NCBI RefSeq assembly: GCF_000021945.1
Contig: NC_011831.1
Location: forward strand, 3,857,353-3,921,352
Origin: Chloroflexus aggregans DSM 9485
Lineage (GTDB): Bacteria; Chloroflexota; Chloroflexia; Chloroflexales; Chloroflexaceae
Length of the DNA: 64,000 bases
Direction: 5' to 3'
The translations under genes were made by a program, and so were the position numbers. The notes beneath the pieces were generated by a model. The model ran no database searches, was not told where the DNA came from, and saw only the letters and a program-made list of their open reading frames with translations. Below, in pieces: positions 22,729 to 30,660 of this stretch (within the stretch, counting starts at the first letter, position 1; each line of letters opens with the position of its first letter).

Positions 22729-23343
22729 ATGGCGAAGGCTGGTGTTCTCTACGTTGGTACTGATAGTGGTTTGTATATTTTGAGTGATCCGGGTGGGTTA
22801 GGACGTTGGCGCTTGTTGCCCAATGTGGCGTTTCCTACTGAGCCGGTGTTTGGGTTGGTTGCTGCCGATTCGCGAAGTCTGGTGATCGCGACGAAACAAG
22901 CCTTTTGGCGCAGTGATGATGGTGGGCAGCAGTGGCGTGAAGCTGACACTGAGGATCAGACATTGTTCAATTTTCTGGCCGGTGATCGGTTGCCGGTCGC
23001 GACGGTACAAGGGATGGGAGTTTGGCGCGAGCATCACGTACCCCTCACCGGAGTTAATCTGCTCGCCGTTCTATCAGGAAAACAAGAGGTGTTGCTCGCG
23101 TCAGTCGATGAGGGTTCCCGTCTCCTCCGCAGTGACGACGGTGGCAAGTCGTGGCACCCTGTCACTACGGAGTGGCAGGGTGCTCTCAGTGCCTTGGCCC
23201 CCAGCAGCTACCATATTGATGTGGTATGGGCCGGGACCGATAGCGGTCAGATTTGGCGCAGTGATGACCGGGGTCGAACGTGGCAATATGTAAGTACAGT
23301 GCCGGCGGCGGTACGCTGTATGGCAGCAGTACGGGTGGCCTAG
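22729..23343 (+). CDS. BNR/Asp-box repeat beta-propeller-like protein
   Basis: This 204-residue protein has three Asp-box repeats: RSDDGGQQW, RSDDGGKSW and RSDDRGRTW. Each sits on a beta-hairpin as in sialidases, Vps10 and photosystem II stability factor HCF136. No signal peptide or catalytic residues are visible. Three or four blades are too few for a closed propeller, so it may oligomerise. The Shine-Dalgarno GAGGAGG precedes ATG 22729. Its stop abuts the stop of the convergent AAA+ gene with no gap. Confidence 0.8.
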   Translation: MAKAGVLYVGTDSGLYILSDPGGLGRWRLLPNVAFPTEPVFGLVAADSRSLVIATKQAFWRSDDGGQQWREADTEDQTLFNFLAGDRLPVATVQGMGVWREHHVPLTGVNLLAVLSGKQEVLLASVDEGSRLLRSDDGGKSWHPVTTEWQGALSALAPSSYHIDVVWAGTDSGQIWRSDDRGRTWQYVSTVPAAVRCMAAVRVA

Positions 23344-24972
23344 TTAATAGCCGTAAAAGTCAGTGTATCCTTCGCGGTCAAGGCGTGCTAACATCTGTTC
23401 GAGCCGCTCGGCGCTGCGCGGTAAGCGGCCACTACAGAGGGTAAGTAAGCTGCGCAGCGCTTGGCGGAACCGTGGTGTGTCATCACCACGGACACGAGGC
23501 AGTAATCGTTGCATAAGCTGCATATCGAGCGCTTCCAATGCACTCATTCCACTTACTTGCTCGATGAAGCGCAACGTCTCGCCGAGCGCTCGGTATCCCG
23601 CTGGCTTGCCGGCTGCACTCAGATGCGTTTGGAACTCGGTGAGCAGGTGCCATACCTGTTCGTCAATACGCTGCCCATACATCGTGCGTAACGCCGGCAG
23701 ATCGACCTGTTTTAACTCGATCAGATTGGCCCTGTCGAGCACTTTGTCGCTCAGCGCAAAGGTGCTTTCATCAACATTAACCGTGCCGATCAGCCGTACA
23801 TTGATCGGTAAACGGAATGGATTGCGCACGGTGCCACCGCCCGCGAGTGGTGTTTCGGCGAGCGGAGTACCCAGATCGATCAGTCCGTCGGACGTTTCCA
23901 TTGCCGATAAGATTGGGGCAAGGTAATATTCAGGTCGGGCCAGATTCATCTCATCGAGGCAGACAATGTACGTTTGACCGGGATCGCCCGCGGCTGCAAG
24001 CAGGTGACGCAAAAATGGTGTTGGTTGGTATAACCCGGTCAACGAATTGTAATACCCTAGCAGATCACGGGCGCTATGCCAGTCAGGTTGGACGGCTACC
24101 GGCAGATAGATCGGATTCGCTTGACCCTCTCCAACCCCGATCAATGCGTCGGCGTAGAGGCGGGTCAACCACGTCTTACCACTACCGCTTGGCCCGGCCA
24201 GAATGACCAACGGCCGGGCTTGTACGGCGAGGTGAAAAGCGTGTAGCGTTTGATCGTCGATCACCATCCCGCGTCGCCGAATAGTAGCTGCGATCTGCTC
24301 GAACAGCGGTGTTCCCGCTACGTACACTGCCGATGTTTCGCAGAGCGTATTGGTTGCTGCCAGATCAAGCTCTGCTAGTTCCATCAACGCTTCATTGAGC
24401 GGCAAGAGCGCACAAAGATCATCAATCAACCGTTCAGCCGATGGCAAATTCTCCCACGGATAAACAAATCCGGCCCACAGATACTGTGCCTGGCGTTGTG
24501 CCAAATAATGATCGATCCAGCGCATCCCCGGCAGTAGCGGCCGGCGACTGGTAAAGCGGGCCTGTCCCTCGGTGCCGATCCGGTCAATGAGCGGCTCCCA
24601 CAAAGGACGGGCATCGCGCCAGAGTTGGGCTAATTGTGGCCGGCGGATGCCCCAGAGTTGCAGGCCGGCTGCAACCGTGCGTTCTGCCCCACTTACCGTC
24701 AGCATAACCCCGGCGCCGCGCGGTGGCCGGTCGAATGCAAACCAGTAATCTTCAATCGGGTCACGCCGACCGCGACCACGGTCAATTGCGCGACGTGTCT
24801 TAAAACTCAGCTCGTACAGTGGCCATTGGCGAGCCAACAATTTTGCTGCGCGCTCGGCAACTCGATTGGCGAGCGCCAACATTTCTGGATGGAGTAGGCG
24901 TTGCACCGCTTGCCAGCGTGGTCCAACGCCGGGTTCGAGCAAGGCTTGCAGGGCGGGTAACGAGAACGGCAT
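23344..24972 (-). CDS. McrB-like AAA+ ATPase
   Basis: This 542-residue protein has an N-terminal region of about 240 residues with no family I recognise. A McrB-type AAA+ module follows: Walker A GPSGSGKT (260-267), Walker B YIVCLDEMNLA (335-345), sensor region GTVNVDESTFALSDKVLDRAN (around 397-416). McrB proteins are GTPase/ATPase motors of modification-dependent restriction, and relatives serve as MoxR-like chaperones. No McrC nuclease is next to it. Its ATG overlaps the stop of the preceding gene (ATGA), so the two products are likely partners. Confidence 0.82.
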   Translation of the reverse strand: MPFSLPALQALLEPGVGPRWQAVQRLLHPEMLALANRVAERAAKLLARQWPLYELSFKTRRAIDRGRGRRDPIEDYWFAFDRPPRGAGVMLTVSGAERTVAAGLQLWGIRRPQLAQLWRDARPLWEPLIDRIGTEGQARFTSRRPLLPGMRWIDHYLAQRQAQYLWAGFVYPWENLPSAERLIDDLCALLPLNEALMELAELDLAATNTLCETSAVYVAGTPLFEQIAATIRRRGMVIDDQTLHAFHLAVQARPLVILAGPSGSGKTWLTRLYADALIGVGEGQANPIYLPVAVQPDWHSARDLLGYYNSLTGLYQPTPFLRHLLAAAGDPGQTYIVCLDEMNLARPEYYLAPILSAMETSDGLIDLGTPLAETPLAGGGTVRNPFRLPINVRLIGTVNVDESTFALSDKVLDRANLIELKQVDLPALRTMYGQRIDEQVWHLLTEFQTHLSAAGKPAGYRALGETLRFIEQVSGMSALEALDMQLMQRLLPRVRGDDTPRFRQALRSLLTLCSGRLPRSAERLEQMLARLDREGYTDFYGY

Positions 24973-25637
24973 CAGGCTGTGGGTGGTCGCAAGTAGAATT
25001 GCGGATCAAGACCACGATCGTTATCTATTTTAGCAGCTTGAAATACGTTGGCTAACCGTGGCAACATCTCACGAAGTTCGTTGCACAGCGTATCAATGGT
25101 CTCGGCTACCGAATCGACATTCAACTGCTCAACTGGGAAGAGGCGAGTCGCTGTCAAGTGCGCGAGGATCGATGCCTGACGACCCTGAGCACGCAGTAAA
25201 CCACTAATCTCAAGATTGTCTTCGACATTCGGTTGATCGATAAAGAGATCAACGACTCTTGCTGCTAAGAGTTCGATATCCGCTGCTTGCCGTTCTTCGT
25301 CGCTTAGCGGGAGAAAGTAGGTTACTTCCAGCAACAGTGTGCTCAGCGGCTGGATTGATGACATCTGTTCATTGACGATCTTATGAATGACATCGATAAT
25401 CGGTTGACCGTGTAGTGAAGCGACCGTCAGTTCAGCCGTCCAATTCACCGTAATCACCGCCCGGAGCGGCGGCTGCATCCACACCCCATTCGTATCCAAA
25501 TTGGGCGGTAAACACGTAATGCGTAGGTTACGTCCAAGACTATGAACGTCGAGCAGTTCCTGAGTGTGCGCAATTGGAATGTCTTGTTCTTCAAGACTCT
25601 CAATGAGTAGTGAGATAAGTTGCTCGTAAGTGAGCAT
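24972..25637 (-). CDS. Unknown protein coupled to the McrB-like ATPase
   Basis: This 221-residue, mixed alpha/beta, acidic protein starts MLTYEQLISLLIESLEEQ. I see no signal peptide, TM helix or known motif. It ends in an ATGA overlap with the AAA+ gene, which implies co-translation. It may be a substrate adaptor or regulator of the ATPase. No nuclease signature (PD-ExK, HNH) is visible. Confidence 0.7.
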   Translation of the reverse strand: MLTYEQLISLLIESLEEQDIPIAHTQELLDVHSLGRNLRITCLPPNLDTNGVWMQPPLRAVITVNWTAELTVASLHGQPIIDVIHKIVNEQMSSIQPLSTLLLEVTYFLPLSDEERQAADIELLAARVVDLFIDQPNVEDNLEISGLLRAQGRQASILAHLTATRLFPVEQLNVDSVAETIDTLCNELREMLPRLANVFQAAKIDNDRGLDPQFYLRPPTA

Positions 25638-29108: not shown

Positions 29109-29480
29109 ATGAACGTCACCACGATCCTCAACGAAACGATCACCAGTGTCAAGGGCGCCCAGTTTGCCGGGATTGTCGGCACTGATGGTCTCGGTGTCGC
29201 AATGGCGTACCATCCTGCTACTGCCGAACTCGACCTTGACATCGAACTGGCCGAACTCGAACTCGCCGAACTGGCCTCACGCGCTACTGCTGCTGCTGCG
29301 CGCATTGGGGCCGGTTTCGTCCGTGATCTGGTCATTGAAACCGATGTCTTGCTTATGTTGGCAATCCAGATCATGCCCGGCTACTACGGTGTCCTCGGGG
29401 TCCTTAGCGAAATGGCTAATTTGGGAAAAGCACGCTTTGCCCTCCAAGCAATGGTCGAACGGCTACGAACCGAGCTATAA
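29109..29480 (+). CDS. Roadblock/LC7-domain protein
   Basis: This 123-residue protein consists of one roadblock fold: N-terminal helix MNVTTILNETITSVKG, strand FAGIVGTDGLGVAMAY, an acidic helix (IELAELELAELASRA) and the C-terminal helix. Roadblock proteins regulate small Ras-like GTPases such as MglA. No GTPase gene adjoins it, so its partner is elsewhere. Its stop overlaps the convergent DUF3037 gene by 6 nt. Confidence 0.75.
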   Translation: MNVTTILNETITSVKGAQFAGIVGTDGLGVAMAYHPATAELDLDIELAELELAELASRATAAAARIGAGFVRDLVIETDVLLMLAIQIMPGYYGVLGVLSEMANLGKARFALQAMVERLRTEL

Positions 29481-29903
29481 GCCCATTGCGGGCGTTTGTT
29501 GGTCGGCAATAACCCCGCCCGACACCGGCACCATCTGCCGAAAGATGTGGGTGAGCATTGTTGGGGCGTGTTCGCATAATCCGCAGTGTACCGCCGATGG
29601 TTGGATCATCGTACTACGAGTAGCCGTCAGCCAGCGGAAGCGCTCATAGATCGGCAGTTCGCCAAGTGGGCCGGCTGCCGCACCGCCGGCACATATCAAC
29701 TCAAAAGCCGTCAATTGCTCTCGTATTGGGCCAAGATCGAGGTCGGGCCAGAGTGCATGAATCCGCGCTTCATCGAGATGAAATTGAATACCAAGAAACC
29801 CCTGTTGCCGACAAAGCAAAACGACCCCGATATTGATCTGCTCACCGCGCTCAACCCGCGGGACCAACCGCAAGAGGGCATACTCAAAGGCGCTCGCGGG
29901 CAT
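29475..29903 (-). CDS. DUF3037-family protein
   Basis: This 142-residue protein starts MPASAFEYALLRLVPRVERGE and continues INIGVVLLC, the start typical of DUF3037, a family of unknown function. A perfect AGGAGG lies 7 nt before ATG 29903. The start lies 20 nt inside the 3' end of the HipA-like gene, so the two are co-translated. Such pairing of DUF3037 with HipA-like kinases recurs in bacteria, from general knowledge rather than a search here. Confidence 0.8.
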   Translation of the reverse strand: MPASAFEYALLRLVPRVERGEQINIGVVLLCRQQGFLGIQFHLDEARIHALWPDLDLGPIREQLTAFELICAGGAAAGPLGELPIYERFRWLTATRSTMIQPSAVHCGLCEHAPTMLTHIFRQMVPVSGGVIADQQTPAMGL

Positions 29904-30660
29904 CGATAGCCTCCTGTACGAATGCACGCGGCGCTGCTAGCCGCAGACTAAGATACTCGATATACGCTTCCCGATGGGCTTCGACCGATGGGAACCTTGG
30001 ATCAACGAGCCACTCGTCCGGGACAAGCTCTACAATTTCCCTAAGCAATTCCGGGGTGATCCGATGTGTCAACTCGGTATCAGCCGCTGCCAGATCGTTT
30101 GCCGCCGGCAACAGCACATGATCGCGGATCTGGTTGAACGGCGCACGGGCGCGTTGTTGATAGTCGTGCCACGTATAATGCATATAGAGCGCTGCGCCAT
30201 GATCGATTAAGAAGAGCTGCCGGTGCCACCAAAGCATATTCGTGTTGCGCGGTGTCCGATCGACGTTGGTGATAAACGCATCAAACCAGACGATCATCGA
30301 AGCCAGCTTGGGATCGAGTTTGCGGGTCGTCGTTGGTTCAAACGCTAACGCGCCGGGCAAAAAATCTACCGCTAGATTCAAACCGGCGCTGGCCATTACC
30401 AAGTCTTGTATCTCGCCGTCAGGCTCATTACGCCCAAGGGCTGGATCAACCTCGATCAGTACGAGTTCGGGTGCCGGTAAGCCCACGGCGCGGGCGAGTT
30501 CACCACAGATCAACTCGGCCACCAGCACTTTAGGCCCTTGTCCCGCCCCACGAAACTTCACCACATACAGACCATCGTCATCGGCTTCAACAATCGCCGG
30601 CAACGAACCGCCTTCGCGTAACGGTTCTACGTAACGGGTTGCAGTGACTCGCCGTAACAT
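29884..30660 (-). CDS. HipA-like kinase domain protein
   Basis: This 258-residue stand-alone protein has a HipA/PI-kinase-like core: ATP-contacting lysine in YVVKFRG (K35), catalytic loop NVDRTPRNTN (D134) and metal-binding LIDHG (D153). It lacks the N-terminal extension of HipA toxins and no HipB-type HTH antitoxin is nearby. Its ATG overlaps the amylase stop (ATGA), and it overlaps DUF3037 downstream. A protein or small-molecule kinase is inferred; the substrate is unknown. Confidence 0.8.
   Translation of the reverse strand: MLRRVTATRYVEPLREGGSLPAIVEADDDGLYVVKFRGAGQGPKVLVAELICGELARAVGLPAPELVLIEVDPALGRNEPDGEIQDLVMASAGLNLAVDFLPGALAFEPTTTRKLDPKLASMIVWFDAFITNVDRTPRNTNMLWWHRQLFLIDHGAALYMHYTWHDYQQRARAPFNQIRDHVLLPAANDLAAADTELTHRITPELLREIVELVPDEWLVDPRFPSVEAHREAYIEYLSLRLAAPRAFVQEAIDARERL

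Follow-up and report, generated by a model that had tools for sequence, protein, structure and literature searches.

Two overlapping genes of Chloroflexus aggregans encode a McrB-family AAA+ protein and a small partner protein, and our analysis suggests that, on balance, the AAA+ protein is probably the motor of a McrBC-like motor-nuclease system of the Chloroflexales, one that is dispersed in the genome and passed on vertically, with a McrC-type protein encoded far away on the chromosome acting as its counterpart. Here, the window refers to the whole 64,000-nucleotide stretch of DNA that was analyzed, and the features discussed are collected in Table 1.

Table 1. Features of the gene pair in window coordinates, and the distant nuclease in the coordinates of its own locus
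Feature	Coordinates	Strand	Basis
McrB-family AAA+ gene, 542 aa	23344..24972	-	ORF list; AAA_5 28.7 bits; PADLOC PDC-M26A 4.5e-47
N-terminal domain, residues 1-207, predicted DUF1054 (YktB) fold, putative reader	24352..24972	-	AF2 model
AAA+ core, residues 222-434	23671..24309	-	Pfam and structure match
Walker A GPSGSGKT	24172..24195	-	Alignment of 46 members
NxD signature N399-V-D401-E402 (sensor-1 NVDE)	23767..23778	-	Alignment of 46 members
221-aa partner gene; small predicted alpha/beta fold with a tentative likeness to YbjN / type III secretion chaperones	24972..25637	-	
Partner C-terminal tail YLRPPTA, a candidate short motif for binding, carried by a linker predicted to be disordered	24975..24995	-	
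Distant McrC-type protein	L082:8446-9930		PF04411, PD-(D/E)XK

The gene pair and its neighborhood

The two minus-strand frames of 542 and 221 residues that an earlier sequence-only reading had picked out are present, and their overlap, described there as ATGA, is in fact a single base (TGATG) that recurs in all eight genomes of the window's genus. The surrounding genes encode what we take to be SecA, DnaX, a YbaB-like protein, and RecR, and the idea that the pair might lie in a defense island finds no support among these neighbors. A PADLOC scan of the neighbors at 12 loci, run at E 1e-20 on 118 of 120 proteins with two long ones left out, gave scattered matches to 57 families; among the matches listed, the most frequent family was mad3, with three proteins, and methyltransferase and type IV restriction models each matched single proteins. 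Against Rfam, nothing in the window reached the gathering scores.

Other features of this region deserve mention in their own right. A BNR/sortilin-like beta-propeller gene (22729-23343, plus strand) converges on the AAA gene. In G003 (L062) and G034 (L067), a relative is likewise a direct neighbor of the AAA gene, so this could be another associated gene. At 29475-30660 on the minus strand, a HipA_2-type kinase gene (PF20613, 5.9e-26) overlaps a DUF3037 gene (PF11236, 6.7e-43), possibly forming a toxin-antitoxin-like pair. The SecA loci of several genomes (G041, G044, G047, G050, G053, G056, some f1 genomes) contain frames of 1222-1705 residues with interrupted similarity, a pattern that suggests inteins.

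The AAA+ motor protein

The 542-residue protein is a McrB-family AAA+ motor of the NxD branch. By sequence, McrB proteins come nearest to it among solved structures, whether it is searched as a single sequence or with a profile, and the best VIA-align match of its AlphaFold2 model is E. coli McrB (6ut6; Z 18.5 over 264 residues at 3.8 A), so the McrB-like identity first proposed for it was right. AAA_5 lies above the Pfam cut-off. In the Foldseek ranking, dynein chains stand side by side with those of McrB. The model has a pLDDT of 85.8 and a pTM of 0.54, a value low enough to make the relative placement of its domains unreliable. The Walker A (GPSGSGKT), Walker B (LDE), and sensor-1 (NVDE) motifs are intact, as had been read from the sequence, and their key residues are kept throughout an alignment of 46 members that includes the window's protein: G260, G263, G265, and K266 in all 46, T267 in 45 with serine in the remaining one, and N399, D401, and E402 of the NxD motif in 46/46. 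This signature marks a branch of McrB-like GTPases, none of them characterized according to Bell et al. (PMC11090510).

The region in front of the AAA+ core measures about 220 residues rather than the ~240 first estimated, and although the sequence-only reading had not recognized it, the model predicts an N-terminal domain with a DUF1054 (YktB) fold. Modeled residues 1-201 superpose on 2a8e with a Z of 16.2 over 183 residues and on 3mqz, titled DUF1054, with a Z of 14.4. We take 2a8e (B. subtilis Q45498) to be YktB, a member of DUF1054. What sets the present protein apart from that family is the fusion of the shared fold to a motor and the weakness of the sequence match, with PF06335 reaching E below 1 in 8 of the 46 members and a best E of 0.025. 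Neither DUF1054 nor YktB is named in a title or abstract among the literature matches listed.

Searched against its own genome, the AAA protein finds only itself, though 28 AAA_5 matches of all kinds are present. A pattern scan of 84,980 species, which is limited to relatives retaining one or the other of two short peptides, returned 56 AAA loci, 55 titled Chloroflexota or merely bacterium and one Gracilibacteria. In this last case (L207), from a MAG labeled Candidatus Gracilibacteria, the AAA gene shows 59% identity and has the partner as its neighbor; the locus is probably a misbinned Chloroflexales contig.

The McrC-type nuclease

The pair had been described as having no nuclease or methyltransferase alongside and no McrC; the first part holds within the window, and the second fails genome-wide. 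The lack of McrC is only local, as a single McrC-type gene sits elsewhere in the genome, which is one contig of 4,684,931 bases with one PF04411 match (G000:C1:680448-681929). On the map, ~3.2 Mb separate the nuclease gene from the AAA gene, a distance that falls to 1.5 Mb in the opposite direction should the chromosome be circular. The nuclease gene presumably has a CorA-type gene and an M48-peptidase-type gene as neighbors.

The McrC-type orthologues match PF04411 in 33/33 cases and DUF2357 (PF09823) in 27/33, the window organism's own copy reaching PF04411 only and giving no PADLOC match. Judging from their alignment, the nuclease has an active-looking PD-(D/E)XK site with its predicted catalytic residues intact: E319, P394, D395, and K415 occur in all 33 members, and position 413 is aspartate in 32 and glutamate in one.

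Co-occurrence of motor and nuclease in the order

The survey comprised 82 genomes of Chloroflexales, 49 of them at 95% completeness or more. The AAA gene is present in 66/82 genomes, the nuclease in 60/82, and the partner in 51/82; the pair, whose absence beyond a single strain would have counted against the sequence-only reading, is therefore widespread. AAA and nuclease genes occur together in 59 genomes and are both missing from 15, while seven genomes, among them G060 (99% complete), have the AAA gene without a detected nuclease and one (G039) has only the nuclease. Among the 49 more complete genomes, the corresponding counts are 44 with both, three with neither, two with the AAA gene only, and none with the nuclease only. 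The co-absence reflects few independent events, since genus g21 contributes 10 of the 15 genomes with neither gene.

Motor and nuclease genes are adjacent in 0/59 genomes with both, as judged by eye from coordinates in assemblies of which many are fragmented; they lie on different contigs in 53 genomes and on one contig in six, at least 51 kb apart. Likewise, blastp with two nuclease queries found no nuclease in the flanks of 56 AAA loci, which extend up to 10 kb and are often shortened by contig ends.

Coupling of motor and nuclease in relatives

Outside the order, 17 loci with a relative of the AAA domain, taken as best matches and thus a non-random sample, show a different arrangement. Nine come from other families of the class (two each in G083, G091, and G094, one each in G088, G097, and G098) and eight from plasmids (H2-H5 and H7-H10, from the ten best of 264 plasmid records). 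In 16 of the 17, the Chloroflexales nuclease profile (A5) matches the gene adjoining the AAA gene, with E values between 1e-13 and 1e-52. At the remaining locus, L143 in G091, the sequence breaks off no more than 560 bases beyond the AAA gene and the neighbor is not visible. Pfam DUF2357 and PDDEXK_7 were confirmed in the three outside loci scanned (L078, L079, L081), and the adjoining gene is annotated as DUF2357 or nuclease domain-containing in 7/7 of the annotated plasmid records opened, three of which (L305, L308, L311) also have a cytosine methyltransferase gene before and a Vsr-type gene after.

A mobile-element reading was rejected. The AAA protein matches 264 plasmid records, but no match spans more than 80% of the protein, and the nuclease, which has no plasmid match as a single sequence, is found by its profile at all eight plasmid loci.

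The 221-residue partner

As the sequence-only reading had noted, the partner has no known domain, matching nothing in Pfam, NCBIfam, PADLOC, or PHROG. A MoxR-type cofactor with a VWA domain, the identity which that reading had itself named as speaking against its proposal, was rejected: the partner has no Pfam match, and VWA is not among the 13 families that any of its 41 members match at E below 1.

Of the 49 genomes that have both genes, 35 have the partner directly next to the AAA gene (29 in family f1, five in f2, and one in f3). In the remaining 14 the two genes are split between contigs, except in G057, where 3.7 Mb lie between them. The other 17 of the 66 AAA-bearing genomes lack the partner. 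A diverged version in f4 was considered and rejected, a profile search having found the partner in 2/26 f4 genomes, both of genus g34. Across 400 genomes of the phylum, the profile matched 87, of which 30 belong to the order and 57 to other classes (E 8e-19 to 9e-8). Fifteen loci of these other-class relatives (L290-L304, ~16 kb each, two shorter) contain no AAA or nuclease gene of the Chloroflexales types, and all 15 proteins lack the PPTA ending. These loci also show a phylum-wide partner-related family with differing C-termini and, in several genomes, some conserved neighbors. The absence of the partner from those 17 genomes, together with its relatives in other classes without an AAA gene nearby, indicates that it is accessory.

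The AlphaFold2 model of the partner (pLDDT 81, pTM 0.77, with pLDDT under 50 for residues 205-221) tentatively points to a fold like that of YbjN or type III secretion chaperones, with VIA-align Z scores of 8-9.4, near a best background of 7-8. The DNA-binding domain of T4 MotA tops the same list at Z 9.4, tied with the YbjN and chaperone folds; Foldseek gave no match at E 0.001 or better, and the best E against PDB sequences was only 0.11.

The C-terminal tail is highly conserved, its Y, P, P, T, and A occurring in 30/30 members of the A3 alignment. Of the two positions between the Y and the first P, the first is L or F, apart from a single Y, and the second is K or R, apart from a single N. 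The DNA pattern for the YLRPPTA tail and stop occurs once in the genome, and in a search for other PPTA-tailed proteins encoded there the exact pattern matches the partner alone. In keeping with the rejection of a mobile element, a search of 50,697 phage records and 72,556 plasmid records found nothing that matches the partner.

Inheritance of motor and nuclease

Trees of the AAA protein (46 rows) and the nuclease (36 rows), both with long outgroup branches, follow taxonomy, and for this reason motor and nuclease look inherited rather than mobile. The family labels together need five changes on either tree, the smallest number possible; taken singly, f1 minus the window's genus needs three changes on the AAA tree and two on the nuclease tree, and f3 needs two on the AAA tree. 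Distance correlations are 0.94 for AAA-nuclease, 0.87 for AAA-SecA, 0.80 for nuclease-SecA, and 0.94 for DnaX-SecA. A mirror-tree argument for a partnership was rejected, as DnaX and SecA correlate just as well; shared descent of the AAA and nuclease genes is supported, with any extra co-evolution not separable from it.

The Chloroflexus branch, expressed relative to sister genera and with genome sets that differ slightly per gene, is 1.55 for AAA, 1.69 for the nuclease, and 3.97 for the partner, compared with 1.28 for SecA and 1.21 for DnaX. The longer branches of the first three may hint at a joint change.

Proposed model and comparison with known systems

Under the motor-nuclease reading that we favor on balance, the AAA+ protein would form a hexamer on which the distant McrC-type protein would dock, stimulating NTP hydrolysis, while the YktB-fold N-terminal domain might read the target. 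The nucleic acid recognized would probably be modified or foreign, and translocation by the motor would drive cleavage. The 221-residue protein may assist the AAA+ subunit as adaptor or chaperone by docking via its C-terminal YL(R/K)PPTA tail, and this adaptor would be optional, given that some lineages lack it. The role of such a system could be type IV restriction that has become inherited or, alternatively, a domesticated task in DNA maintenance. A more specific version, possible but tentative, is that a complete McrBC-type motor-nuclease was domesticated in the Chloroflexales ancestor, its genes becoming separated and inherited in a core-like manner, with a YktB-fold reader and a lineage-specific, chaperone-like adaptor that docks by its C-terminal YL(R/K)PPTA peptide, and that it performs chromosomal surveillance or maintenance rather than mobile phage defense.

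E. coli McrBC shares the McrB-type AAA+ fold and the presence of a McrC-type nuclease in the genome; it differs in that the subunit genes here are non-adjacent wherever both occur, that the motif is NxD and not NxxD, that the trees follow taxonomy, and that a YktB-like domain stands where, according to PMC11090510, E. coli McrB has DUF3578/ADAM. The NxD-branch groups outlined in that source (CoCoNuT and methyltransferase-associated) have the same N-x-D followed by E, and the plasmid AAA relatives resemble them in their methyltransferase and Vsr associations (3/7 annotated records), whereas the gene in the window has neither a methyltransferase nor a McrC-type neighbor and the N-terminus is predicted to have the YktB fold. 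In PADLOC, the AAA domain matches PDC-M26A, but PDC-M26B is matched by neither the gene pair nor the distant nuclease. Among the literature matches listed, nothing to the point was found on McrBC in Chloroflexus or on a split, orphan, or domesticated McrBC.

Alternative explanations

The main rival, which we regard as unlikely, is that the AAA+ protein was co-opted from restriction, as in S. aureus PcdA and the animal CTTNBP2 lineage, and now performs a housekeeping task with the 221-residue protein, the distant McrC-type protein not being its partner. The spread of the AAA gene over 66/82 genomes, the agreement of both trees with taxonomy, and the housekeeping-like neighbors in the window would all fit a PcdA-like role, and PcdA itself is a precedent, a McrB-family protein kept within its lineage with no McrC gene alongside in the account of PMC10602043. 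According to the same source, however, PcdA carries EVE domains, acts in division, and has a largely degraded Walker A motif and a lost Walker B glutamate, whereas the corresponding residues are conserved here and an intact McrC-type nuclease is encoded elsewhere in 59 of the 66 AAA-bearing genomes.

The sequence-only reading had proposed a stand-alone two-gene defense or assembly module, made of the AAA+ protein and its partner without a nuclease. The observation behind it was confirmed, since no nuclease is seen locally and the pair is adjacent in 35 of the 49 genomes with both genes, and the interpretation is supported in part. We nevertheless consider such a module quite improbable: the partner is absent from 17/66 AAA-bearing genomes, the McrC-type gene, a single distant copy in the window's organism, mostly co-occurs with the AAA gene (59/66), and the window offers no defense context.

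That the genes are what is left of an ordinary McrBC restriction operon with an associated methyltransferase, now fragmented and decaying, as the plasmid AAA relatives placed between cytosine methyltransferase and DUF2357 plus Vsr-type genes in 3/7 annotated records might suggest, is highly implausible in view of the catalytic residues of motor and nuclease kept across the order and the lack of internal stops within the listed matches to the AAA protein at E below 1e-30.

Significance

The McrBC census in PMC11090510 paired neighboring genes and added only manually annotated orphans, so a co-inherited motor and nuclease encoded far apart could easily be overlooked by it. The AAA+ protein offers a member of the NxD McrB branch, in which that source reports none characterized, and the DUF1054 (YktB) fold gains a candidate role as a reader domain. 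If the dispersed, co-inherited motor-nuclease that we favor is true, it would show a restriction machine entering the core genome.
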